Shown here in pieces: positions 7,100 to 31,363 of a DNA stretch of 64,000 bases. Each line of letters begins with the position of its first letter. The stretch's first letter is position 1. The stretch spans positions 2,887,501 through 2,951,500 of the forward strand of contig NZ_CP080269.1 of assembly GCF_019431355.1 (NCBI RefSeq), read 5' to 3'. The translations under genes were made by a program, and so were the position numbers. The notes below the pieces were generated by a model that saw only the letters and a program-made list of their open reading frames with translations, was not told the origin of the DNA and did no database searches. Origin of the DNA: Paenibacillus sp. R14(2021) (GTDB lineage Bacteria > Bacillota > Bacilli > Paenibacillales > Paenibacillaceae).

Positions 7100-7981
7100 T
7101 TACGGCTCGTCATCCGTTTTGTTCAAGCCAGCATCCCCAGACAGATCCGTACCGCCGCCCGATCCGCCGTTTGCATTGGAAGACGTATTCGGCGGGGATG
7201 TGGTCGATACGCCGCCGCTTCCTCCCGGCTGCGCCGGAAGCGCGATGCTTGGCGCATTTTGCGCGGATTCTCCGACAGGATTGCCCTTGTTATCGTAGTA
7301 GTACATCGGAACATCGCCGACGACAAGCAGGTAAGAAATCGGGATTTCCGTCTCGACAAGCTCCGGCTGGGTATCAAACGGAATGATGATCGACACTTCC
7401 GCGACGATATGCATGTACACTTCCACGAGAATCATATTGATGCCGGCGTCCTTCTGCCGGGTGTTTAAATCGACCTTGACGGCGCCGATCGGCTCGAACT
7501 TGACCGGTATCCTCGGCCCGAACGATGCGATGATCGCGCTGCCAAGCGCTTGACCGAGCGGAATCTTCTCCGGGATGTCGCCCATTTTGTCCAGCGTGGA
7601 CTGTACCGTATTAATCGTCTCCGACGTAATGCGCATATGCTCCGCGTAATTGAGCATAAAGCCGGATATTTTGCCGCTGGCATTCGTTTTCCAATCAATG
7701 AGCTTATCCGCGCCGGTTTCATCTGCAACTTGCTCCGTGATGGCTTTATTAATCGCTTGGGTCGCCACCTGCTTCACGCGGACCTGCGCAACGGTCATGA
7801 GCGGCTTCTGCAAATTGCGTTCAATGAAAATAAATGTCTGGAAGAAGAATAGCAGGAACAGTGCCATCAGAAACAGGATCAGCCTGCGGCGGCCCTTCTT
7901 CCTGTCGCCCTGGCCGCTCTTGCCGCCTGTCCGCCTGCGAACGCCGCTGCTTCGCCAGCCTCTTCTTCCCCACCTTCGCAT
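7100..7981 (-). CDS. yunB: Sporulation protein YunB
   Basis: A 293-residue member of the YunB family, which is under sporulation control in B. subtilis; biochemical function unknown. A very basic N-terminus (residues 1-33, about half Arg/Lys/Gly) precedes one membrane segment (LILFLMALFLLFFFQTFIFI). An extracytoplasmic domain with the family segments DKLIDWKTN and IPLGQALGS follows. The last ~50 residues are a Gly/Ser/Pro-rich tail. The start ATG 7981 has AAGGGGG eight bases upstream. It keeps its usual neighbour, the YunA-like peptidase. Confidence 0.88.
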   Translation of the reverse strand: MRRWGRRGWRSSGVRRRTGGKSGQGDRKKGRRRLILFLMALFLLFFFQTFIFIERNLQKPLMTVAQVRVKQVATQAINKAITEQVADETGADKLIDWKTNASGKISGFMLNYAEHMRITSETINTVQSTLDKMGDIPEKIPLGQALGSAIIASFGPRIPVKFEPIGAVKVDLNTRQKDAGINMILVEVYMHIVAEVSIIIPFDTQPELVETEIPISYLLVVGDVPMYYYDNKGNPVGESAQNAPSIALPAQPGGSGGVSTTSPPNTSSNANGGSGGGTDLSGDAGLNKTDDEP

Positions 7982-8060: not shown

Positions 8061-10361
8061 CTATTCCCGCGTCAGCATCCCCGCTCCAAGACAGGCAGCA
8101 ACGGACAGCTTGCGCACGCCAAGCTCGAACCGGATTTCGACGGTTTCCTGATTGGCCGCGATATACACGCCGGTCCCCAAAGAGCGGTGAACGAGCCGAT
8201 CGCCTGCTTTCAGCCCCTCGAGCGTCTTCAGCGCGCGGGGATTCGCCAGTTCTGCTTCTTCGCCCGGCCTGCCCTCCGTCACTGTAACACCGCCGCTTGC
8301 CTGGCGGCGCCCCGCAAGCAGCACAGCCGGCTTAGCCCGTGGCTGCGGCTTACCGCCGCTCCGAGCGTTCCAGGCTGCCTCCGGCTTGCCTGCGCTGCCT
8401 GCTTCCTTCTGATGCGGCGACTGCAGGTGGCGAACCGCCGTGACGAATTGGGACTCCTTGACCTCTTCCCCGTTTCGCTTGCCGTAGCTGATCAGCGCAA
8501 GCTGCTTCTTCGCCCGCGTCATCCCGACATAGAACAGCCGTACGGCCTCCTCCATGAGCGGAGAAACTTCATCGTCTTCCTTCTTCACGTCTTCGGCGGA
8601 TGGAATAATGCCTTCAATAAGATCGAGCATATAGACACGTTCGAACTCGAGACCCTTAGCGCTGTGAAGCGTAGAGAAAGTGACCGCGTTTGCGTGTTTG
8701 TTCCGCTTGGACGCCTTCATTACCGCCTCCAGGTACTTCAAGCGGTTCGCGAAATCCTCCAGCGACGGCAGACCGTCCGCGATGTCTTCGAGCGTATTCA
8801 GCATGCCCGTCAGATTCTCCTTGCGGAAGCCGAGCCGCTTGCAGATGCGATCGAGCGCCCGCTCGTAGCCGAGATTGTACCGAATGAGACGAATAGCGGC
8901 ACGCGGCTCCATATCCCGCATCCGCTGGAACATCTCTTTGGCGTCCTGCAGCTGCTTCGTCTGGTAATCCTGCAGCGGCACGTGCGCGATCAGATTATCG
9001 AAGACGGATTCCCCGTTATCGATGGCAGCGAGCGCTGCCATCTGCACCTTTGTAATGTAGCCCAGCATTTTCGTGTGAATCTTCTCTAGCAGATCGGCGC
9101 GTTTGTCGGTATAGGCCATCCGCATGAAGCCGAGGACGTCTTCGAGCACCCAGTGCGTAAAGAAGCGATTGTCCCCGTCCTTCATGTAGAAGGGAATGCC
9201 CCGCCGGTCAAATTCGTTCATCAGCGTAATCGACGAAGCATTGTTGCGGTACAGCAGTGCTGTCTCGCTTAGAAGCTCCGTGCCTTCGATCTGATCCGCC
9301 AAATATTTGGCCTGCTGCTTGTAGTCGCCCAGCTGTTTAATGGCAATCGGACGATGTCCGGGATTCCGGGTAAACATATTCTTGTCATAACGATGCTCGT
9401 TGCGCTTAATGAATTCGTTCGCGATCTCCACAATATTGCGGGAAGAACGGTAATTCTGTTCCATTTTCAAGATGGCCGCTTCCGGGTAGACGCGCTTGAA
9501 GTCGAGCAAATACTGCGGCTCCGCGGCCCGCCACGTATAGATGCTCTGATCGTCGTCCGCTACGACGCAGAGGCAGCCGTGCCTGGCGGCCAGCTTCTCG
9601 ATGATGGCATGCTGCACGAGCGATGTATCCTGGCTTTCGTCGGTCAGCACGTAGTCGTAGCGGTTCTGATATCGCCACAGCAGCTCGCCGCCGCCAGACA
9701 GCGCGTCGTTCGCGATGACGAGCATATCGTCGTAGTCCACAAGCAGTTTGTCTCCGAAGGAGCGCTTGAACGCCTCGTATTCTTTCATAACGGCTGCCGC
9801 TTCGGGAACATCGCAGGGTGTCTCCTCCCATTTGTGCACGGGAACGAGCTTATTCTTGTTATAGCTGATGTAGGTCGTCAGTTCTTCCATCTGATCCTCG
9901 GTCAGGTTGTCGCCTCGCAGCTTCCGGTAGATGTCCCGCAGAATCAGCTTCTTGTGCAGCGGGAGCTCTTCCTCCTCCTGCTGCTCCACTTCGCCCTCGA
10001 TGATTTGAAACGCGATACGGGAACGCCGCAAATGATCGCGCATGACCTCGAACGCGAAGCTGTGTATGGTCGAGAAATTGACGCTGCCTTCGGGATGATC
10101 CGGGAAGAACCGGCTGAACCGATCCTTCATGTCCTGCGCCGATGCTCTGCTGAACGTGACGGCTTTAATCCGCGAGGGATGGACGCCCTTCACTTCCACG
10201 AGATAGCCGATCCGCATAATGATCGTCGTCGTCTTCCCCGAACCCGGCGATGCGAGCAGCAGAAGCGCGCCTTCCGTATGCTTCACCGCTTGCTTCTGTA
10301 TCGCATTGAGCGCCACGCCAAGCTCGGCCTGCTTTCGGGCGAAAAAATCCATTGTTGCCAT
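8061..10361 (-). CDS. UvrD/Rep-family superfamily 1 DNA helicase, YjcD-like
   Basis: An ATP-dependent 3'-5' DNA helicase of about 766 residues. Motif I is ASPGSGKTTT, II TDESQD, III VADDDQSIYTWRAA, IV NYRSS, V TLHSAKGLEF and VI VGMTRAKKQ; all are intact. The C-terminal ~120 residues replace the usual UvrD tail with a basic linker and a small domain starting RLVHRSLGTGVY, as in B. subtilis YjcD. The frame stays open to 10496, but a terminator hairpin lies inside that extension. ATG 10361 has GGAG five bases upstream, so it is taken as the start. The likely role is DNA repair; the specific pathway is unknown. Confidence 0.88.
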   Translation of the reverse strand: MATMDFFARKQAELGVALNAIQKQAVKHTEGALLLLASPGSGKTTTIIMRIGYLVEVKGVHPSRIKAVTFSRASAQDMKDRFSRFFPDHPEGSVNFSTIHSFAFEVMRDHLRRSRIAFQIIEGEVEQQEEEELPLHKKLILRDIYRKLRGDNLTEDQMEELTTYISYNKNKLVPVHKWEETPCDVPEAAAVMKEYEAFKRSFGDKLLVDYDDMLVIANDALSGGGELLWRYQNRYDYVLTDESQDTSLVQHAIIEKLAARHGCLCVVADDDQSIYTWRAAEPQYLLDFKRVYPEAAILKMEQNYRSSRNIVEIANEFIKRNEHRYDKNMFTRNPGHRPIAIKQLGDYKQQAKYLADQIEGTELLSETALLYRNNASSITLMNEFDRRGIPFYMKDGDNRFFTHWVLEDVLGFMRMAYTDKRADLLEKIHTKMLGYITKVQMAALAAIDNGESVFDNLIAHVPLQDYQTKQLQDAKEMFQRMRDMEPRAAIRLIRYNLGYERALDRICKRLGFRKENLTGMLNTLEDIADGLPSLEDFANRLKYLEAVMKASKRNKHANAVTFSTLHSAKGLEFERVYMLDLIEGIIPSAEDVKKEDDEVSPLMEEAVRLFYVGMTRAKKQLALISYGKRNGEEVKESQFVTAVRHLQSPHQKEAGSAGKPEAAWNARSGGKPQPRAKPAVLLAGRRQASGGVTVTEGRPGEEAELANPRALKTLEGLKAGDRLVHRSLGTGVYIAANQETVEIRFELGVRKLSVAACLGAGMLTRE

Positions 10362-10401: not shown

Positions 10402-10440
10402 AAAAAACGAAAATCCTTCTCCGGCAAAGCGAGAAGGATT
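10402..10440 (-). terminator. Terminator of the A-B-C-D-B ger operon
   Basis: On the minus strand a perfect 10-bp stem (AATCCTTCTC / GAGAAGGATT) is followed by a T-rich run. It lies after the last ger gene and before the helicase start, and it is the main reason to place the helicase start at 10361. Confidence 0.82.
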
Positions 10441-10499
10441 CCGATCCGATAATAGGCTTCACTACCAGTATCGCAAGAATGAGCCGCCCGGCGCAACCG

Positions 10500-11609
10500 T
10501 TAATTTTTGCGCTGCACGCCCTGTCCCTTATTCCGCAGCTTGGCAATCCCGAGCAGCACCATCGGCATACCGAGCATGAAGAACGGCAATAGGAACGGCA
10601 TTCCGAGCTTCTGCGGAAACTCCACCGAGCTCTGAACGAAATTCCGCGGGAGCAAGGAGGTCAGCAGAGCAAGAGGAGCGATCATCCACGACATGCGGCG
10701 CCAGCGCTTGATCTTCAGCCACTGGGCCGTTCCGTACGTGCTGATGAAATAATAAAGTGACACCTTGAGAAACACGCTTACGATCCAGATTGCGATGACA
10801 AGCGAGTCGAGGTTCTGAATAAAGTCGAAATACGTCACGTAACGGACTAGATGAAAGAACGGATAGGTCAGGCATTCGCCTGTTCCGACGCCAAGCACGG
10901 TAATGATGAGGAACGTGGACATGCAGGTGAGAAACGCCGCCGCGCCTACGCCAAGCATCGCATACTTCGTTCCGCAGCCGGGTTTATTCACGAACGCATA
11001 CAGCATAACGAGCATGACGCAGTCGCCGAGGAAAGTCGTTGTCGGGAGCGCCCCCGTAAGCAGCTTTCCTATGCCGGAGTCCACGTACATAGGCAAGAGC
11101 TCTATTAATTTCATATCCTTCATCGCCATAATAAGCGGGATAAGAATACCGAGCAGAATAAATGGGCCGAAGAGCTCGCTGCATCTGGCGATTACCTCGA
11201 TGCCCGTATGCGTGACATACATCGCGACCAGCAGCATGGCTATAATGGGAATCAGCAATGGCGTATGCGGCAAAATGGTACCCAGCACAAAATCCGCATA
11301 CTGCCTTAGGATGATGGCTAAGAGGCTGTACCAGTATAGGAGGTACAGGCCGATCAGCGCATTGCCTGCCCATTTGCCCGCAATGGCCACCACATATTCC
11401 ACGAACGTCTCCTTCGGAAAACGTAGACTAAGCCGCGAGCAAACAAAGGCGATCCAAACTCCGATGATGCCGGCAATGAACGTCGAAATCCAGGCATCCT
11501 GCTTCACAACATGCAGCGTGGGGTTGATGGTGAGCAGAATCGTCATGCCGGCTTGCATGACGGACATGAGCCAGAACAGCTGTTTACCGCCGAAGCGCAT
11601 GTCCTTCAT
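10500..11609 (-). CDS. GerAB-family germinant receptor permease subunit (second B gene of operon)
   Basis: A 369-residue membrane protein with about ten segments, of the amino-acid-permease-like GerAB/GerKB family that binds germinants in the spore inner membrane. It begins FGGKQLFWLMSVMQAGMTI, typical of the family. The reading frame runs open to 11945. The start at 11609 is fixed by a 4-base ATGA overlap with the small upstream gene, by family alignment and by length. It is the last gene of the operon and a paralogue of the B subunit at 13043-14152. Two B genes with one A and one C suggest alternative receptors assembled on a shared core. Confidence 0.9.
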   Translation of the reverse strand: MKDMRFGGKQLFWLMSVMQAGMTILLTINPTLHVVKQDAWISTFIAGIIGVWIAFVCSRLSLRFPKETFVEYVVAIAGKWAGNALIGLYLLYWYSLLAIILRQYADFVLGTILPHTPLLIPIIAMLLVAMYVTHTGIEVIARCSELFGPFILLGILIPLIMAMKDMKLIELLPMYVDSGIGKLLTGALPTTTFLGDCVMLVMLYAFVNKPGCGTKYAMLGVGAAAFLTCMSTFLIITVLGVGTGECLTYPFFHLVRYVTYFDFIQNLDSLVIAIWIVSVFLKVSLYYFISTYGTAQWLKIKRWRRMSWMIAPLALLTSLLPRNFVQSSVEFPQKLGMPFLLPFFMLGMPMVLLGIAKLRNKGQGVQRKN

Positions 11610-11851
11610 GGATGGCTCGTCCCGCCGTGAATCAGGAAATCGCCAATCGGCGTCATCAGCGTGTCCACCAGCTCCGTAAGTCCCGGCAAGCGGGGGAAGA
11701 TCATCAACAGCGAGGCGAGCAGCCAGCACAGCGCCAGAAGGGACCAGAAGGCGCTCCGCTCCTTCGCGGGGGCGTGACGTATCCAGCGCAGCTGCACGAT
11801 CGTCACCAGCAAGCTTATCGTCATTAATGCAGGAATCGCTCTCCATGTCAT
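11606..11851 (-). CDS. Small two-helix membrane protein, candidate germinant receptor D subunit
   Basis: An 81-residue protein with two hydrophobic helices (ALMTISLLVTIVQL and FWSLLALCWLLASLLMI) joined by a charged loop. ATGA overlaps link it to the gerC gene before it (11848-11851) and the gerB gene after it (11606-11609), so it is surely translated as part of the operon. Small two-TM D-subunit proteins are known in or near some ger operons of Bacillus and clostridia, where they modulate germination. Assignment here rests on size, topology and position, not on a visible motif. Confidence 0.72.
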   Translation of the reverse strand: MTWRAIPALMTISLLVTIVQLRWIRHAPAKERSAFWSLLALCWLLASLLMIFPRLPGLTELVDTLMTPIGDFLIHGGTSHP

Positions 11852-13065
11852 GATTTCGGGCTCCTCTCTTTCTCCGGCCTGCTCGCCCTGACATTAGCCA
11901 GACCGGGACGAAGCAGCACGGCTTCCGGCTTGGTAATGACTTCAACCTTCGGAAACAGCTCGTCCCATTGCGACTGCATGCGATGCCATTCTTTGGGATA
12001 CGCTCTGTGGAAGACGCCGGCGAAATTGAAAATATCCGCCTTCAGCTTCCCCTGCGCTTGAGCGAGCGCCATATCGATCCGATCCTTGATGTCCTTCTCC
12101 AGTGCCTTCTCCACGATTGTGATCGATTTGGGTTCGATCGTCAGATTGGCTGCCGTCGAATTCTCAACCGCATCGTTCTCCGTATGGATCCGGGCGGTAA
12201 TTTGCCATTTCCCGTTCTGAATACGTGCCTTCAGCTTCGTGCGACTCTTGATCAGCCGTACGGATACGATGCCTTGTTCGTCCTTAGGCTCGACTGTAAT
12301 GACCGCATTCTTGATTTCATTCTGAAGCCAAAGCACGCCCCTTGTCGTCGTCTCATCAATGACGCCGACCATCTTATCTCCTTTAAAAACGGCCGTGCCA
12401 TTCTCGAAATGCACGCTCGTATCCGGGTTGCCCTTGGTATGGGGAGCCTGCCGGCTAATCCAGGGAAGAACCGCAGCGCCTGAACCACTTGTAATCATCT
12501 GGGATAGATCCGCCAGCGTCACGCTCACGGATACCTTGTTTTTGGCAATTTCCCGCAGTGCCTCAGATGTATCGCGCTCCAAGACCGACCGCAGCTCCAA
12601 CGCTTGTCTCGCTTTGCCGTGGCTGACGTATATGTAGGCGCGTTCCCTCGGCTGCGGCGCTCGCATCAAGTAATCCACTTCGTCTTGAATGCCATGCCTG
12701 GCCGCCGCTTCGCTGAAAATAAAGATTTCGGCATGCCCCCAGAACAATTTGCGGGACATCCGCTCCTGCAGATGCGAGAACGCATCGGCAAGGTTCTCTC
12801 CCTTCGCTGAATTCACAAACGTATTGGTGGAGCCCGTTCCGCCCTGGCTGCCCATGCTCATTCCGCCTCCGCCTCCGCCAGCGGCCCGAGGTACGAAGAT
12901 TTGCACTGATAATTCAACCGTCTTGGCATTCACCTGGTCAACGCTCGCGCCTGTAATCAGTGCCAAATCATTAATTTCGATACGATCCCAGCAGCCAGTC
13001 AGAGGAAGAACGAGCATACAGCAGGTGACGGCAGTGCCAAGCTTACGCATTCGGCTTGTGTTCAT
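11848..13065 (-). CDS. GerAC-family germinant receptor lipoprotein subunit
   Basis: A 405-residue lipoprotein. Signal sequence and lipobox LPLTGCWDR place the lipidated Cys at about residue 26, and CWDRIEINDLA is the family hallmark. The protein anchors to the outer face of the spore inner membrane and works with the A and B subunits. A glycine-rich stretch (GGGGGGMSMG, residues 62-71) is an insertion in the N-terminal domain. It overlaps the upstream B gene by 23 bases and the downstream D-like gene by 4. Confidence 0.92.
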   Translation of the reverse strand: MNTSRMRKLGTAVTCCMLVLPLTGCWDRIEINDLALITGASVDQVNAKTVELSVQIFVPRAAGGGGGGMSMGSQGGTGSTNTFVNSAKGENLADAFSHLQERMSRKLFWGHAEIFIFSEAAARHGIQDEVDYLMRAPQPRERAYIYVSHGKARQALELRSVLERDTSEALREIAKNKVSVSVTLADLSQMITSGSGAAVLPWISRQAPHTKGNPDTSVHFENGTAVFKGDKMVGVIDETTTRGVLWLQNEIKNAVITVEPKDEQGIVSVRLIKSRTKLKARIQNGKWQITARIHTENDAVENSTAANLTIEPKSITIVEKALEKDIKDRIDMALAQAQGKLKADIFNFAGVFHRAYPKEWHRMQSQWDELFPKVEVITKPEAVLLRPGLANVRASRPEKERSPKS

Positions 13066-14152
13066 GCTTCCCTCCTCCTTTCAGCACGGCAATCCACAAG
13101 AGCAGCATCGGAATCAGGACTTGAAAGAATAGCGAGAATAGCGGCAGGCTTGTGCCGAGCAAATGCTTGAGCACTTCAAAATTCGGCGCTGCCCAAATGG
13201 AAAACAACACCATAAGCAGGCCGACCGGAAAGACGAGCACGCGGTAATCAGGCACCTTCAGCCACTGGGCTGTGCCGAGAACCGCCAGGTAATAAACGAC
13301 GGTTACTTTAATGAAGATCGCAACGAGCCAAATCGCCATGAGAATCGATTCGATGTGCTCGATGAATTCGGACAGCGAGATGTAACGAACCGCCGTCAAG
13401 AAAGCATAACTAAGTCCTTTGTTCATCTCTCCGAACAGAAATAGGATCGAGAGGTTAATGGAAAGCATGGTAAGCACAACCGAAGCGACGCTGATCATGC
13501 ACCATTTAAGCACCTTCGCAGGCTCTGCTTTGACATAGGGGAGAAACAGCGCAATGACGAAGAACTGCGAATACCAGGACGACGGCACGATCGAGCCTCT
13601 AAGCGCGGGCAAAGGCCCGTACTCCAGAATCGGCAGCATTTCCTTCACATGCATATCAGGCGCCATGATGACCAGCATGAGGAAGATAAGGAAGATCGCC
13701 ATCGGAATAAGCAATTGTGCGACGCGCACCCATACCTCGAGCCCTTGGAAAGTCGCGTAGGCACAGACGGCGATTAAGCATACGATGATGAAAATCATCG
13801 GCGTCTCCAGCAGAAACGTGCCCACGATAAACTCGCCGTACTCCCGGACGATGATGCCATTGGAATACAGGAAGTTGATTAAATACATGAGCGTGACCGT
13901 TTTGCCAAGATACGTGCCTAGAATAGCATCCGTATATTGGATGAAGGTCTGCTTCGGAAACCGCACATGCAGGCGGTAGCAGACATACACGATCCAGAAG
14001 CCGGTGACCGACGACAAAATCGGCGTCATCCACATGTCACGTCCCGCGGTGATCATTGTAATTGTCGGGACGCTTAGCGAGACGGTTGCCAATATGAACG
14101 GTTGCAGGAATATCGCTAGCTGAATGGGGGAAATTCGGCCTTTTTCAATCAT
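13043..14152 (-). CDS. GerAB-family germinant receptor permease subunit (first B gene)
   Basis: A 369-residue ten-segment membrane protein of the GerAB/GerKB family; the start ATG 14152 overlaps the A-subunit stop as ATGA. It has the typical N-terminal segment ISPIQLAIFLQPFILAT. It shares architecture and many positions with the second B gene of the same operon (for example AQWLK near the C-terminal third), which points to an old duplication followed by divergence. It probably determines germinant specificity. Confidence 0.92.
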   Translation of the reverse strand: MIEKGRISPIQLAIFLQPFILATVSLSVPTITMITAGRDMWMTPILSSVTGFWIVYVCYRLHVRFPKQTFIQYTDAILGTYLGKTVTLMYLINFLYSNGIIVREYGEFIVGTFLLETPMIFIIVCLIAVCAYATFQGLEVWVRVAQLLIPMAIFLIFLMLVIMAPDMHVKEMLPILEYGPLPALRGSIVPSSWYSQFFVIALFLPYVKAEPAKVLKWCMISVASVVLTMLSINLSILFLFGEMNKGLSYAFLTAVRYISLSEFIEHIESILMAIWLVAIFIKVTVVYYLAVLGTAQWLKVPDYRVLVFPVGLLMVLFSIWAAPNFEVLKHLLGTSLPLFSLFFQVLIPMLLLWIAVLKGGGKHEHKPNA

Positions 14153-15666
14153 GCGGAATCATTCCCTTGGGGGGGCTCTGGTTTCTGATTCGGCCCCTGC
14201 CGATTCGGATTGCTCACGCTTCCCGTCAGATGCGGGCGCTTGTTCAGCAGCCAGAGTGGCGAACGGAGAAGCACGTCCCGCATCTCGCTGCCTCTCATCG
14301 GTGCAAGCGGCTGCATGTACGGCACGCCTAGCGAACGGAGGGAGCACAGATGAATGACGATCACGATGACCCCGAGCATTAAGCCAAGCAGCCCCAGCAT
14401 GCCCGAGAGAAACATAATTGGAAACCGAAGCATACGGATCGCGATGCCGCTGCTGTATTGCGGCATCATGAAAGAGGCGATCCCCGTAATCGCCACGACC
14501 ATGACCATCGGCGCGGATACGAGACCAGCCGATGTCGCCGCTTGTCCGATCACAAGCGCGCCGACGATGCTGACGGCAGCACCGACCTGCTTCGGCAGGC
14601 GCACGCCCGCTTCGCGGAGCGCTTCGAAGGAAATCTCCATCAGGAGCGCCTCGACGAGGGCCGGGAACGGGATGTCTTCCCGAGACCTCGCTATGCTGAG
14701 GAGCAGCGAGGTCGGCACCATCTCCTGATGGTACGTAAGAATCGCCACATAAAGTGAAGGCAGCACGAGCGTCATGATGAAAAAGAAATAGCGAAGCCAA
14801 CGGATCAGCGTACTGATGAAGAAGCGCTGATAGTAGTCTTCGGGCGACTGCAGCATCGCGAACAGCGTCGTTGGCGCTATGAGGGCAAACGGTGTACCGT
14901 CTATCAGCACTGATACCCTGCCCTCAAGCAGCGCGGCGCTGACGACATCAGGCCGTTCCGTCACTTGTAATTGAGGAAAGGGCGAGAATGGATTGTCCTC
15001 AATCAAGCCCTCTATATAACCGCTCTCCAGGATGCCGTCGATATTTATGCCTTTGATGCGCAATTGCGTCTCGGCGACCAGCGATTCCGCCGCGACGCCT
15101 TCAATATATACGATGAGCACTTCCGTACGGGTAAGCGTACCCACGAAGTAGGATTGGATTTTGAGCGAAGGCGTCTTGATCTTGCGGCGCAGCATCGACG
15201 TATTGACGCTGACCGATTCGGTGAAGCCCTCCCGTGGGCCGCGTACCACTGATTCCGCCGCGGGCTCCTCGATAGCTCTTTTCTCCCATTTGGCGATTCC
15301 CATCGCAAAGCAGCGGGTCAATCCGTCTATGAAGAGGAGAATACAGCCGCCGCCGATACGAAACAGCGTCTCGTCGATCGTATCGACGACCTCCAAATTG
15401 GAAATCGTCAGCACCGATGCCAGCACGTCCTCCGCATTGCCGTCGTTCATTTGAAACGGCTGCTTGACCAGCGCGCTGATGACGTGCAAATCCAGCACTT
15501 CCACGTTGACCAAGCCGTCAATGAACAGGACGAATGCTTTGGTCGATTGGCCGATGAAAATTTTCCGAAATTTAACGTCCCTGGCATTGGCATAAATGCC
15601 TGTCAGGCGTTCGTAATTGTCATCCAGTACGGCGGAAATGGATTGCGGGTTCGACGTGACGTCCAT
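14149..15666 (-). CDS. GerAA-family germinant receptor subunit
   Basis: A 505-residue protein of the GerA/GerKA family: a soluble N-terminal domain (1-270) followed by four to five membrane segments. Family signatures include SVLIDGTPFALIAPTTLF and PFPALVEALLMEISFEALREAG (split here by description only). The frame opens at 15705, but ATG 15666 has a perfect AAGGAG six bases upstream and is chosen. First gene of a five-gene operon in the order A-B-C-D-B, in which nearly every junction overlaps. Expression late in the forespore is expected; no sigma-G site was assigned. Confidence 0.92.
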   Translation of the reverse strand: MDVTSNPQSISAVLDDNYERLTGIYANARDVKFRKIFIGQSTKAFVLFIDGLVNVEVLDLHVISALVKQPFQMNDGNAEDVLASVLTISNLEVVDTIDETLFRIGGGCILLFIDGLTRCFAMGIAKWEKRAIEEPAAESVVRGPREGFTESVSVNTSMLRRKIKTPSLKIQSYFVGTLTRTEVLIVYIEGVAAESLVAETQLRIKGINIDGILESGYIEGLIEDNPFSPFPQLQVTERPDVVSAALLEGRVSVLIDGTPFALIAPTTLFAMLQSPEDYYQRFFISTLIRWLRYFFFIMTLVLPSLYVAILTYHQEMVPTSLLLSIARSREDIPFPALVEALLMEISFEALREAGVRLPKQVGAAVSIVGALVIGQAATSAGLVSAPMVMVVAITGIASFMMPQYSSGIAIRMLRFPIMFLSGMLGLLGLMLGVIVIVIHLCSLRSLGVPYMQPLAPMRGSEMRDVLLRSPLWLLNKRPHLTGSVSNPNRQGPNQKPEPPQGNDSA

Positions 15667-15830
15667 AGGCAGACTCCTTGTATGTACTAGTCCTAATTTT
15701 TCCATAATCGAGGCAAGGTAAACACCCTCCGAAAATTGGAGAGCATTCCGCCTCGTGCCGTCACAAAATGTTGTGGGAATTGCGCGTGATTTTTGTTACA
15801 ATTATTGAAAATTTGTTGAAGGGGATCGTT

Positions 15831-17219
15831 ATGGACTACATCAGCACACGAGGTAAGATCGAACCTGTCGGCTTTGTCGACGCCGTCCTTATGGGACTGG
15901 CTGATGACGGAGGCTTGCTCGTTCCGAAGCAAATTCCGCAGTTGTCTCCTGATACGCTTCATGCCTGGCAGCAGCTCTCCTATCCGGAGCTCGCGCTTGA
16001 GCTGTTCTCGCTCTACATCGACGGTGAAATCCCGCGCGATGACCTGAAGAAGCTCGTCGATGACAGCTACGGCACGTTCCGCGACGACGAAGTCACGCCG
16101 GTGCGCCGTGTAAGCAACAGCCTGCACATCCTGGAGCTATTCCACGGCCCGACGTTCGCGTTCAAGGATATCGCCCTTCAATTTCTCGGCAACCTCTACT
16201 CTTATATCTCGCAGAAGCACAATTCGACGATTCATATTCTCGGCGCAACCTCCGGCGATACAGGCGCATCCGCCATCGAAGGCGTGCGCGGTAAAGAAGG
16301 CATCCGCATCTGCATTCTTCATCCGCACGGCAAGGTAAGCAAGGTGCAGGAGCTGCAGATGACCACGGTCGACGACGCAAACGTGCTTAATCTAGCCGTT
16401 GACGGCAATTTCGACGATTGCCAACGGATCATCAAGGAATTGTTCGCGGACGTTGCGTTCAAGCAGCGCTACCATCTGCGCGCGATCAACTCCATCAACA
16501 TCGCCCGAATTCTGGCGCAGACGGTTTATTACTTCTATGCCTACTTCCAGCTTGCCAAGCAGGGCCAAGGCGAGAAGGTTAACTTCAGCGTGCCGACCGG
16601 CAACTTCGGCGATATCTTCGCAGGCTATATGGCCAAGCGGATGGGACTGCCGATTCACAAGCTGATTCTGGCGACGAACGAGAACAACATCCTGGAGCGC
16701 TTCGTGACAGAAGGCGTGTATCAGCCCGGCGAATTCCGCGGCACGCACAGCCCGTCGATGGACATCCAGGTCGCGAGCAATTTCGAGCGCTACCTGTATT
16801 ATTTGAACGGCGAAGATGCCGGCACCGTATCTGCGCTGATGAGCGACTTCAAGCGTGATGGACGGATCGTCATTGCCGGTGAGGCGCTCAAGCAAGTTCA
16901 AACCGATTTTGAAGCCTACGGCGTTCAGAACGACGAGTGTCTGAGCACGATCAGCAGCTATTATTCGGATTACAGCTATTTGCTGGATCCGCACACGGCT
17001 TGCGGCGTCGCCGCGGCACAAAGATATACGGCGGACGACGAAGTGACGGTCGCATTATCGACCGCGCACCCGGCCAAGTTCGATGAGGCGATCCAACTCA
17101 TTAACATTAAGCAGACGGCACCTTCGCAGATTCAGGCGCTGTCAGGCAAGCCTCAGTTCCAAACGCGCGTAGCGGGAACGAACGAAGCTGTGGCTGAGCA
17201 GCTGCTCGCGTTTTTCTAA
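15831..17219 (+). CDS. thrC: Threonine synthase
   Basis: A PLP enzyme that converts O-phosphohomoserine to threonine. It is the larger class found in E. coli rather than the short Bacillus ThrC (462 residues). The N-terminal MDYISTRGK and the PLP lysine Lys112 in HGPTFAFKDIALQF are visible, as is the phosphate loop GATSGDTGASA. ATG 15831 has AAGGGG upstream; the open frame before it (from 15768) has no ribosome site. It stands alone between a minus-strand ger operon and its own terminator. Confidence 0.94.
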   Translation: MDYISTRGKIEPVGFVDAVLMGLADDGGLLVPKQIPQLSPDTLHAWQQLSYPELALELFSLYIDGEIPRDDLKKLVDDSYGTFRDDEVTPVRRVSNSLHILELFHGPTFAFKDIALQFLGNLYSYISQKHNSTIHILGATSGDTGASAIEGVRGKEGIRICILHPHGKVSKVQELQMTTVDDANVLNLAVDGNFDDCQRIIKELFADVAFKQRYHLRAINSINIARILAQTVYYFYAYFQLAKQGQGEKVNFSVPTGNFGDIFAGYMAKRMGLPIHKLILATNENNILERFVTEGVYQPGEFRGTHSPSMDIQVASNFERYLYYLNGEDAGTVSALMSDFKRDGRIVIAGEALKQVQTDFEAYGVQNDECLSTISSYYSDYSYLLDPHTACGVAAAQRYTADDEVTVALSTAHPAKFDEAIQLINIKQTAPSQIQALSGKPQFQTRVAGTNEAVAEQLLAFF

Positions 17220-27899: not shown

Positions 27900-29213
27900 A
27901 TGATTGAACAAGTGAAGCATCGCTTCTCGCGAACCGGCGATCTGTTCGGCCAGCGGGTCGTGATTCGTGACGCCTCGCTCTTCGTATGCGGGCTTCGGTC
28001 ACTGATCGACTTCCCGCAGAGCGTCGACTTGCTGCGTATGCAGTCGCTCGGCACCGCGGAATCGGGACCAAGCGTAATGGACGCGCTGCTTGGGCTTGGA
28101 TACGAGCTGAAGCCGGATGACGAAGATAAAGCCTGCGCGGAAATCCTGAACGGCATGCTTGTCGTCATCGACGAAGGCTCTAATCGATGTCTGTGCCTTT
28201 ATCCCATTCGAAATCAGCTCAGCCGTTCCTTATCCACGCCGCTCATGGAAAATAACATCCGGGGCTCGGGCACGTCTTTCAATGAGGATATCGACACCAA
28301 CATCGGCCTTCTCCGCAAGCAGTTCAACACGCATGATCTTGGACTCACCACCTATACGTTCGGAAGTACGGTCAAGAGCCGGGTCATTGTGTCCTATATG
28401 AAGGGCAGCGTGGAACCTAAAATGCTGCAAGCCTTGACCGAGAAGCTGGAATCGCAATTAAACCAGGGCGTCGCCAATTTACAGGATCTATCGAATATTT
28501 TGAAGTTTCCGAAATTATCACTCGTTTCCAGGTATAACGCGACCGAATTGCCCCAAAATGCATCGCGTGCCTTGCGTTCCGGAAAGATTGTACTGTTTGT
28601 AGAACGGTTTCCGTTTGCCTTGGTCGTACCGAGCCTCATAACGGACATGCTCGTGACGGAAGACGATATGAATCACCCGGCCGTCTATATGTTCTTGTTC
28701 CGCGCGATCCGTCTGATCGGCTTGATCACCACGCTGATTTTCCCGGGTCTCTACGTTGCGCTGGTCTCCGTCAATCCGGACGTGCTTCAGTTCGAGCTGG
28801 CCCATTCGATCGCGATGAGCCGCCTGGACGTACCTTACCCCGCCATCGTCGAAACGTTGATTTTGCTCTTCGTCTTGGAATTAATCATGGAGGCGATTAT
28901 TCGGCTCCCCTCCAGCATCGGACCTACGGTCACGATGGTCGGCGGTATCGTACTTGGACAAGCGGTCGTGACGGCCAAGCTGGTGAGCAATTTGCTCATT
29001 ATCGTCCTTGCTGCCGTCACGATCGCCAATGCAACCGTCGTTGGCTATCAGAACTCCCTCACCATCCGCCTGTTTAAATATTTGCTCTTGTTTCTATCGA
29101 CGATCTTCGGCGTTCTCGGCCTTTTATCGGGCCTCGTGATCATCGTTGCCTATTTAAGCAGTGTTCGGACACTAGACGTTCCTTATTTGCAATTAAAACC
29201 CAAAGGTGATTAG
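27900..29213 (+). CDS. GerAA-family germinant receptor subunit (second ger operon)
   Basis: A 437-residue GerA/GerKA-family protein, shorter than the 505-residue paralogue at 14149-15666 mainly in the N-terminal soluble domain. The family core is present: GKIVLFVERFPFALVVPSLI, then YPAIVETLILLFVLELIMEA, then the final DVPYLQLKPK. ATG 27900 is the first start after an in-frame stop; GGAGG lies about 14 bases upstream, which is long. First gene of an A-B-C receptor operon on the plus strand. Confidence 0.9.
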   Translation: MIEQVKHRFSRTGDLFGQRVVIRDASLFVCGLRSLIDFPQSVDLLRMQSLGTAESGPSVMDALLGLGYELKPDDEDKACAEILNGMLVVIDEGSNRCLCLYPIRNQLSRSLSTPLMENNIRGSGTSFNEDIDTNIGLLRKQFNTHDLGLTTYTFGSTVKSRVIVSYMKGSVEPKMLQALTEKLESQLNQGVANLQDLSNILKFPKLSLVSRYNATELPQNASRALRSGKIVLFVERFPFALVVPSLITDMLVTEDDMNHPAVYMFLFRAIRLIGLITTLIFPGLYVALVSVNPDVLQFELAHSIAMSRLDVPYPAIVETLILLFVLELIMEAIIRLPSSIGPTVTMVGGIVLGQAVVTAKLVSNLLIIVLAAVTIANATVVGYQNSLTIRLFKYLLLFLSTIFGVLGLLSGLVIIVAYLSSVRTLDVPYLQLKPKGD

Positions 29214-30305
29214 ATGACTAAAAATATGCATGTCGCCGTAGCCTACGTGATTACGCATATGGGATTGATGTTTTACTCCTACCCTGCCGATGTCATTGAG
29301 AGCACCAAGGAAGCGCACTGGCTGCCGATCATGGTTGGTTTCCTGTTCCATCTGACGATCATTTCCGTTTACATGAAGGGAATCAGCCTCATGAAGGGAC
29401 AGAATCTCATTACCGTCCTTATGAACAAGAACAAAGGGCTTGCTTGGGCTGCCCTCTTTCCCGTATCTGTTTACCTGTTCGTCAACATTATCCTGACCGT
29501 TCGATCTTATGCCGAAATTATCTCGATCATCTTCCTGTCCAATACGCCGCTCTGGGTGCTGATGCTGCTGCTGCTCATCATTCCCGCGTATATGGCGCTT
29601 CATGGAGGTGCCAAGGGACTGATGCGAACGTCTTTATTGCTCGCCATCCTGTTTATCCTCCCGATTCTGTTTGTGCTGATCAATTCGTTTCAACATGTGG
29701 ACTTTCGTTACGCGCTGCCGCTTCTCCCTACCAGTTCGCATATGTTCTCGTTCCTGCTTCACCCTGCCTACTACAAAAGCATATTTGTATTTACGGCCGG
29801 CTTCCTCTTTCTTGGTTTCATTCCTTCCAGCGTGCCTTATAAGCCCAAAACGATAATTAAAAGCAGCTTTATGCTATTGCCGCTATATCTGTTCTCCGTC
29901 TATATTCCGATCTTGACCCTAGGACAAGAAACGGCACGGCAGCTCGAATTCCCCTATACGTTCACGGTAGATACCATTGAAATCGACTGGCTGATGTTTG
30001 ATCGGATAACCGTCTTCATGCTGCTCAGCTTGATGGCGTTCTCCATGATGTTTATCGCTGTAACGTTCTGGTGCCTTCAAACGGTCATTCGTCAAAGCAT
30101 CAAAGACATACGGCCATTGTATCTCATGCCTGTGATCGTCGTCGTTTCTTTCAGCGTTTGCTTAAGTATTCCGGACTGGAAAATAGTCGATCATGCTTAT
30201 CAGCTGAATTCTTATCTAAGAGGGTATGTGGCGCTTACGATTCCGCCCATTGCGCTCATTGCCGGCCGCTCCTACATACGTCAGATGAATCGAGAGTTGA
30301 AGTGA
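29214..30305 (+). CDS. GerAB-family germinant receptor permease subunit (second operon)
   Basis: A 363-residue ten-segment membrane protein of the GerAB family. Its ATG directly follows the TAG of the A gene (no spacer), with AAAGGTGAT as ribosome site inside the A gene. The family N-terminal block (HVAVAYVITHMGLMFYSYP) is present. It pairs with the A and C genes on either side as a nutrient sensor in the spore inner membrane. Confidence 0.91.
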   Translation: MTKNMHVAVAYVITHMGLMFYSYPADVIESTKEAHWLPIMVGFLFHLTIISVYMKGISLMKGQNLITVLMNKNKGLAWAALFPVSVYLFVNIILTVRSYAEIISIIFLSNTPLWVLMLLLLIIPAYMALHGGAKGLMRTSLLLAILFILPILFVLINSFQHVDFRYALPLLPTSSHMFSFLLHPAYYKSIFVFTAGFLFLGFIPSSVPYKPKTIIKSSFMLLPLYLFSVYIPILTLGQETARQLEFPYTFTVDTIEIDWLMFDRITVFMLLSLMAFSMMFIAVTFWCLQTVIRQSIKDIRPLYLMPVIVVVSFSVCLSIPDWKIVDHAYQLNSYLRGYVALTIPPIALIAGRSYIRQMNRELK

Positions 30306-30307
30306 CC

Positions 30308-31363
30308 ATGCTGAAATGCATCGCCGCCCTTACCGCTCTGGTCCTGCTCAGCGGCTGCTGGGACAATAAAGATATCAATCACCGGGCGCTGCCGGTGGCG
30401 ATGGGGATCTCGTACAAGCACGGGAATTATACCGTGTACCTGGATATCCCCCGTGTAAGCGAACACGACAATGGCATTCAAATCATCGCAGCCACCGGGG
30501 AGTCCATCAGCGAAGTCATCGACCATATTAGTATGAATATGGAAAGCCAAGTGGATCTCCTGCATTTGAAAGTCATCGTCGTCGATAGAACGTTCGCTTC
30601 GTTCGGACTAAACGAAGCCGTCGAGAGCCTGATCCGCTCAGGGCATATCGCTCCCAAAACGACCTTCGTCATCAGCGACGAGCCGCTCGATCGATTTTTT
30701 GAACGCCTCGATGCGACTTCCAAAAACGACGGAACGGCGCTCTATGACTATTTTCAAAAAGACGCGGGGTGGAGTCCTGAGATTGCGTATACGCAGCTGT
30801 GGAAAATTTTCCGAAGCATCCATTCGTACACCAATGATGTCGCTATTCCGCTTATCAAATCCGGAGATACGACAATTCTTCAGAGCACGGGCTCTGCGAT
30901 CATGAAGAACGGCAAAATGGTCAGTAAATTGAACAATGAGCAAACGCTGCTGTATAACGTGTTTAACGGATTGAGCACGCAAGGCAAAATCGAAGTGACG
31001 GGGCACGGAACGATTCAGATCGTTAGCAGCCGCATCCGAAACCGGGGCTACTTCATAGGCGAACAGCCGCATTTGAAGAGCACCATTTATTTGAAGGTTA
31101 TTCTCCTCGACACCCGCGGAAACCCGTCCACGGATGTGATCAAATCGGAGCTGAAAACCATTGTTTTGCAGCGCTTCAAACAGATGTTCACGACCATACA
31201 GCGGTCCAAGGCCGATGTTTTCGGACTTGGACAATACTTCAGAAACGATCTGACCCGGGCAGAACTGGCGAACTGGCGGTCGGATTATTTGCCCCGAATC
31301 CAAATCGATCTGGAGGTGAAGACTGTCGTCCGGAATACCGGGAACTTGAAAACTCGGACTTGA
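30308..31363 (+). CDS. GerAC-family germinant receptor lipoprotein subunit (second operon)
   Basis: A 351-residue lipoprotein. ATG 30308 gives a short signal sequence and lipobox LLSGCWDN (Cys at about residue 17), the family hallmark being CWDNKDINHRALP. The open frame extends back to 30071 inside the B gene, but that part is not GerAC-like. It starts two bases after the B stop. A strong terminator follows at 31411-31442. Confidence 0.91.
   Translation: MLKCIAALTALVLLSGCWDNKDINHRALPVAMGISYKHGNYTVYLDIPRVSEHDNGIQIIAATGESISEVIDHISMNMESQVDLLHLKVIVVDRTFASFGLNEAVESLIRSGHIAPKTTFVISDEPLDRFFERLDATSKNDGTALYDYFQKDAGWSPEIAYTQLWKIFRSIHSYTNDVAIPLIKSGDTTILQSTGSAIMKNGKMVSKLNNEQTLLYNVFNGLSTQGKIEVTGHGTIQIVSSRIRNRGYFIGEQPHLKSTIYLKVILLDTRGNPSTDVIKSELKTIVLQRFKQMFTTIQRSKADVFGLGQYFRNDLTRAELANWRSDYLPRIQIDLEVKTVVRNTGNLKTRT

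Follow-up and report, generated by a model that had tools for sequence, protein, structure and literature searches.

In the model of the Bacillus subtilis germinant receptor GerA, GerAA forms a channel ring, GerAB stands around it and GerAC lies outside, the whole being a pentamer or hexamer of A-B-C units (PMC11841064). For Bacillus megaterium, PMC5935672 states that specificity is influenced by a separate GerB subunit, which interacts with GerUA and GerUC. D subunits, moreover, have been defined as short proteins with two transmembrane (TM) helices encoded in or beside a receptor operon (PMC4661057). Here we describe a receptor operon of Paenibacillus sp. R14(2021), located in a window of 64,000 nucleotides (the whole stretch analysed; contig NZ_CP080269.1, positions 2,887,501 to 2,951,500). 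Its five genes, all on the minus strand between window positions 15666 and 10500 (open reading frame coordinates) in the order A-B1-C-D-B2, probably encode a GerA-type nutrient receptor whose one A, one C and one D serve two B sensors of anciently separate lineages.

The products have the hallmarks of such a receptor: A matches PF03323, both B proteins match PF03845 and have a predicted APC fold, C is a lipoprotein with GerAC domains, and the 81-residue D has, by hydropathy and position, the architecture of a D subunit. Against PDB sequences, the N-terminal part of A matches 6o59 (E 8.5e-59), A also matches GerIA in 9prb (E 3.7e-22), and C, in whose translation an LTGC lipobox is visible, matches the spore germination protein B3 in 3n54 (E 2.9e-11). 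The structure models of B1 and B2 reach a predicted local distance difference test score (pLDDT) of 93.7 and 92.4, with the APC-kind amino-acid transporters ApcT and AdiC as top Foldseek matches of B1 and AdiC as that of B2. D has no Pfam or NCBIfam match at 0.01, and a homology search with it returned a single plasmid match (E 0.2). The gene order, coordinates and junctions given by an earlier sequence-only reading of the window are borne out, on the minus strand, with overlaps of 4, 23, 4 and 4 bases at A/B1, B1/C, C/D and D/B2. The 23-base overlap is not general: across ten same-family operons, B1 and C overlap by 4 bases in seven, by 11 in two and by 23 in the window only. The start of A looks better placed at 15666 than at 15705, because AAGGAG stands 7 bases 5' of the former and the ATG at 15705 falls within the promoter-like block described below.

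The central evidence concerns the two B proteins, which are 28% identical. Placing the ten B1 and ten B2 rows of the same family in one clade is rejected by the approximately unbiased (AU) test (p-AU 4e-57, in a tree from which L084, L093, L096, L099 and the B at window position 29214 were dropped as long branches; labels beginning with L or G denote sampled operons and genomes), and the identity and this rejection together rule out a recent duplication of B1 into B2. B1 falls with the B proteins of mostly D-bearing operons and B2 with those of A-C-B operons. On these sequence comparisons, B1 and B2 are two old lineages.

The pairing of these lineages recurs widely. Two samples were searched, 394 genomes of the host's family (Paenibacillaceae) and 392 genomes order-wide. 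In the family sample, relatives of B2 at E 1e-100 occur in 17 genomes and relatives of A at E 1e-200 in 20, the latter carrying A-B-C-D-B ten times (the window, G002, G004, G006, G007, G014, G015, G018, G039 and G050), A-B-B-C-D twice (G003, G008) and A-C-B eight times (once, in G137, with B in pieces). A close A is also found in 20 of the order-wide genomes, 14 of them belonging to a second family in which 13 operons read A-B-C-D-B and one reads B-A-B-C-D. The five-gene order with the window's type of B pair is present in 23 genomes from two families, including Cohnella nanjingensis DSM 28246 and Cohnella sp. REN36, and this recurrence places the arrangement beyond chance. D is present in all ten same-family operons (in G007 at a closer look at the locus) and in all 13 of the second family, and, judged by profile coverage, 22 of the 23 have two B genes that look full length. 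Other operons likewise join two B genes to one A, C and D, as A-B-B-C-D (L112, L131), A-C-D-B-B (L141, L144, L146), B-A-B-C-D (L176) or even A-B-C-D-B (L133, L134), but there, unlike in the window, both B proteins are of the B1 lineage; among the operons mapped here, only the window's operon type pairs B1 with B2. The window's own 6 Mb genome (G000) holds 33, 34 and 30 matches to the GerA, GerB and GerC families, some in broken genes (the B of L078 in two frames, the A of L099 in three pieces), and none of the 28 further receptor regions examined in it pairs one A and C with two full-length B genes.

The phylogeny and selection of the operon were examined as well. In the tree of A and C, the 23 five-gene operons form one group (support 95), whose sister (99) is the A-C-B group; the B1-type operons follow. 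The B1 tree also unites the 23 five-gene rows (100). Smaller groups recur in the A+C, B1 and B2 trees alike (a pair of Cohnella, eight operons from the window's genus, and sets of four and nine in the second family), which fits joint inheritance. These trees are quick searches with support from the Shimodaira-Hasegawa-like approximate likelihood ratio test (SH-aLRT) only, and several inner forks are open; the position of B1 as sister to the B genes of A-B-B-C-D operons varies between trees and is not rejected (p-AU 0.76). The topologies appear compatible both with an ancestral two-B operon that suffered later losses and with an origin by joining. Across six operon pairs, none of the five genes reaches a ratio of nonsynonymous to synonymous substitution rates (dN/dS) of 1: it lies between 0.10 and 0.18 for A, 0.14 and 0.20 for B1, 0.11 and 0.22 for C, 0.11 and 0.24 for B2, and 0.15 and 0.60 for D. 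Mean identity of nine relatives to the window is 73% for A, 60% for B1, 57% for C, 47% for D and 59% for B2.

The predicted germinant pockets of the two B proteins also differ. Positions were read against the B. subtilis GerAB sequence, six residues of which were checked against PMC8617281, the paper in which pocket changes alter specificity such that spores answer L-leucine or L-serine, and in which replacing V101 or T287 by a bulkier residue sets off germination. Around G200 in TM6, B1 reads W-x-S/T-Q and B2 F-x-G-D, in 23 of 23 operons each: B1 has Q and B2 has D at the G200 position itself, S or T versus G at the L199 position, and a fixed W versus F three residues before G200. The M23 position in TM1 is I or V in B1 and Q in B2, and the Y291 position in TM8 is mostly V or I in B1 (N or L in three) and Y in B2. 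The sequence-only reading had proposed a comparison of the two pockets by structure prediction; the predicted pocket residues do separate the sets, though many other columns do so too. B1 and B2 likely bind different ligands.

That reading had also suggested that the small protein between C and the second B tunes both sensors, which the distribution of D does not support. Where a sampled operon has a B of the B1 lineage and none of the B2 lineage, D is present in 26 of 27 cases, versus none of 14 where the only B is of the B2 lineage, so D associates with B1 rather than with both; the operons counted are related and do not represent independent events. The 27 comprise 24 from genomes (23 with D, that of L148 found by hand, and L135 without) and L152, L153 and L176. 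Left outside the counts are B1-like places in G002 (C82), G005 (at 2451339), G293 and G010, two operons with a broken B (L078, L132) and the operons of other B lineages, some of which carry D (L074, L079, L083, L087, L088, L089 and the first of L109). The window's D aligns with the D of A-B-B-C-D operons. B. megaterium spores without GerUD showed a higher apparent Km (Michaelis constant), 7.5 instead of 1.7 mM for glucose and 5.4 instead of 1.7 mM for proline (PMC4661057), and AlphaFold 3 places GerID within the GerI complex (PMC13170314). D most likely serves the B1-type receptor, in assembly or affinity, rather than both types.

The flanks of the operon are compatible with a single transcription unit. 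Upstream of A, the block GTTTA-N15-GGAAAAATTA fits all 12 informative positions of what we take to be the sigma-F consensus, a score that no shuffle of the letters equalled in 500 trials. No other site on either strand of the window is an exact sigma-F-like match; 12 sites reach 11 of 12. An exact site lies upstream in seven of the ten same-family operons. The 15-base spacing is the commoner one among sigma-F promoters (PMC5942855). Other promoters were considered and set aside: sigma-A-like sites number 4 against 4.0 expected, and the best sigma-G-like scores are no better than shuffles in any of the ten operons. Downstream of B2, a terminator-like hairpin was spotted by eye and then folded, its loop of 9 exceeding the limit of 8 in the terminator scan; it has a minimum free energy of -16.8 kcal/mol (z -2.1), and 5 of 200 shuffles fold equally well. 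With overlapping junctions between one promoter-like block and one terminator-like hairpin, the single unit proposed earlier is plausible and nothing points to separate transcription. We infer that the five genes are co-transcribed, probably in the forespore.

Taken together, these data suggest a receptor in which A would be the channel, C the lipoprotein and D a two-helix accessory, with each B offering an APC-fold pocket between TM1, TM3, TM6 and TM8, probably for a different small germinant. B1 and B2 would both take a B place on a common A/C core, and spores could respond to two sorts of nutrient, or to the two combined, via one type of channel. That the A/C core is shared within the protein complex is likewise inferred. 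The sequence-only reading of two different B genes beside one A and one C is upheld by their 28% identity, apparent full length in 22 of 23 operons, low dN/dS and distinct fixed pocket residues, and an inactive B gene, which that reading named as fatal to its proposal, is not what the sequences indicate.

Several points weigh against this reading. Its support comes from sequence and prediction. The B1 of L168, one of the 23 operons, ends early. Synonymous divergence (dS) exceeds 1 in several pairs, which makes those dN/dS ratios rough, and the D ratio of 0.60 arises in one pair. The GerAB T287 position is K in both B sets, and 38 of 77 columns that are fixed (in nine of ten rows) in both same-family B sets differ, so the pocket does not stand out. 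The 23 B2 rows are not exclusive, falling in a set of 30 that includes seven A-C-B rows (97) and whose inside is not resolved. Three of the ten same-family operons score only 10 of 12 for sigma-F, equalled by 19-47 of 500 shuffles, and the best sites of the 13 second-family operons score 9-10, near chance; because of this, sigma-F as the regulator would be a lead and not a result. Finally, disruption of the A gene in an extra-B operon of Clostridium botulinum gave no phenotype (PMC4161481), and with 33 GerA-family matches in the genome, redundancy could hide any role of the present operon.

How the two B proteins are deployed admits several answers. The one that fares best, with a credible though not quite even chance of being right, is two separate receptors of different specificity, A/C/D with B1 and A/C with B2, which is the earlier model except for the place of D. 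Related A/C lineages exist as A-B-B-C-D with B1-type B proteins only and as A-C-B with B2-type only, and a further B working with GerUA and GerUC gives a precedent in B. megaterium (PMC5935672), but a single pool of A and C makes random mixing likely and there is no evidence of sorting. Mixed rings, in which B1 and B2 share one A/C oligomer and integrate two nutrients by co-germinant or AND-like logic, strike us as a tentative second answer. Since GerA is modelled as an oligomer of five or six A-B-C units (PMC11841064), such rings are as open an outcome as two receptors, and with one A/C pool and two B proteins they are to be expected unless assembly is biased; by our calculation, equal and unbiased B1 and B2 would leave 6% pure rings among pentamers or 3% among hexamers. 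None of the 23 five-gene operons lacks either B gene, and in one of these B1 ends early. Yet biased or co-translational assembly could keep rings pure, and the related lineages with a single B type indicate that each type presumably supports a receptor by itself. A bolder version, which we think doubtful, would have the operon as an old, jointly inherited hetero-sensor with B1 and B2 in the same A/C ring, one channel computing a two-nutrient combination, and with the B1-only relatives (with D) and B2-only relatives (without D) as reduced forms.

It is improbable that one of the B proteins has a regulatory or decoy role, in which it no longer senses a ligand but holds the channel shut or aids assembly. 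B1 lacks the glycine of GerAB G200 and has A or S at the G25 position in 22 of 23 operons, but B2 lacks the former glycine too and has S at the latter position in four of 23, and a B1-lineage B is the sole B type in 24 further operons sampled from genomes. That adjacent receptor genes came together recently by accident and do nothing jointly is conceivable in a genome so rich in GerA-family matches, but very hard to reconcile with the same order in two families, low dN/dS and overlapping junctions.

The features of the locus and its neighbours are collected below. A plasmid labelled Klebsiella pneumoniae (NZ_CP061968.1) carries a GerB-like match with 31% identity to B1, perhaps through contamination or mislabelling.

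Table 1. The two-B receptor operon, its putative signals and nearby genes in window coordinates.
Feature	Position	Strand	Basis or remark
YunB-like sporulation protein	7100-7981	-	operon neighbour
UvrD-like helicase	8061-10361	-	adjoins operon directly downstream
Intrinsic-terminator-like hairpin and T run	10402..10441	-	about 60 bases 3' of B2
B2, 369 residues, predicted APC-fold germinant sensor, other lineage	10500..11609	-	PF03845 E 1.5e-51
D, 81 residues, two predicted TM helices, KER...LPG motif	11606..11851	-	hydropathy and position
C, 405 residues, lipoprotein	11848..13065	-	PF25198 E 1.3e-38 and PF05504 E 2.4e-42
B1, 369 residues, predicted APC-fold germinant sensor	13043..14152	-	PF03845 E 1.8e-48
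A, gerA-type subunit, 505 residues	14149..15666	-	PF03323 E 2.8e-185
-10-like GGAAAAATTA	15694..15703	-	sigma-F-like scan; 15 bases from GTTTA
-35-like GTTTA, sigma-F-type forespore promoter (candidate)	15719..15723	-	scored jointly with -10
Threonine synthase	15831-17216	+	divergent, upstream of operon
Second A-B-C receptor operon	27900-31363	+	very divergent; A (437 residues) matches PF03323 only from about position 68

The reading of one A, C and D serving two old B lineages can now be set beside the described systems. To our knowledge, the B. subtilis GerA operon has no D gene. It shares with the window the A, B and C families and the predicted APC fold of B (PMC8617281), but has one B only. 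The GerU/GerV genes on pBM700 of Bacillus (Priestia) megaterium QM B1551 resemble the window in joining one A and one C to two B genes; their order, found also on another Priestia plasmid, is A-C-B-B and not A-B-C-D-B, and the two B proteins are 80% identical, versus 28% in the window. From their order we take these B genes to be GerUB and GerVB, the record giving no names. A 76-residue open reading frame, divergent upstream of the pBM700 operon and outside it, has the size of GerUD (PMC4661057); taken as GerUD on that ground, it is, in the alignment, without the window D's KER...LPG motif, and as D proteins are named by architecture, we claim no homology between the two. Several gerXB genes around one A and C are likewise a feature of the pentacistronic operon of C. 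botulinum Group I and the tetracistronic one of Clostridium sporogenes, whose multi-B layouts, (AB)ABCB and ACxBBB, differ in order from the window, and the accessible text names no D in them (PMC4161481, PMC5083711).

Among the literature matches listed, which cover titles and abstract openings and leave most subscription literature outside, no paper deals with such an operon in this group. The operon bears on how spores integrate several nutrient signals and on how B subunits determine specificity. Related A/C lineages with B1-type, B2-type or both make subunit swapping and mixed-ring assembly directly testable, and the link between D and B1 offers a way into the role of D subunits. Receptor operons with extra B genes, and a further B that shares GerUA and GerUC, are already published; the operon described here differs in joining two old lineages, in gene order, in its overlapping genes and in being conserved in two families.

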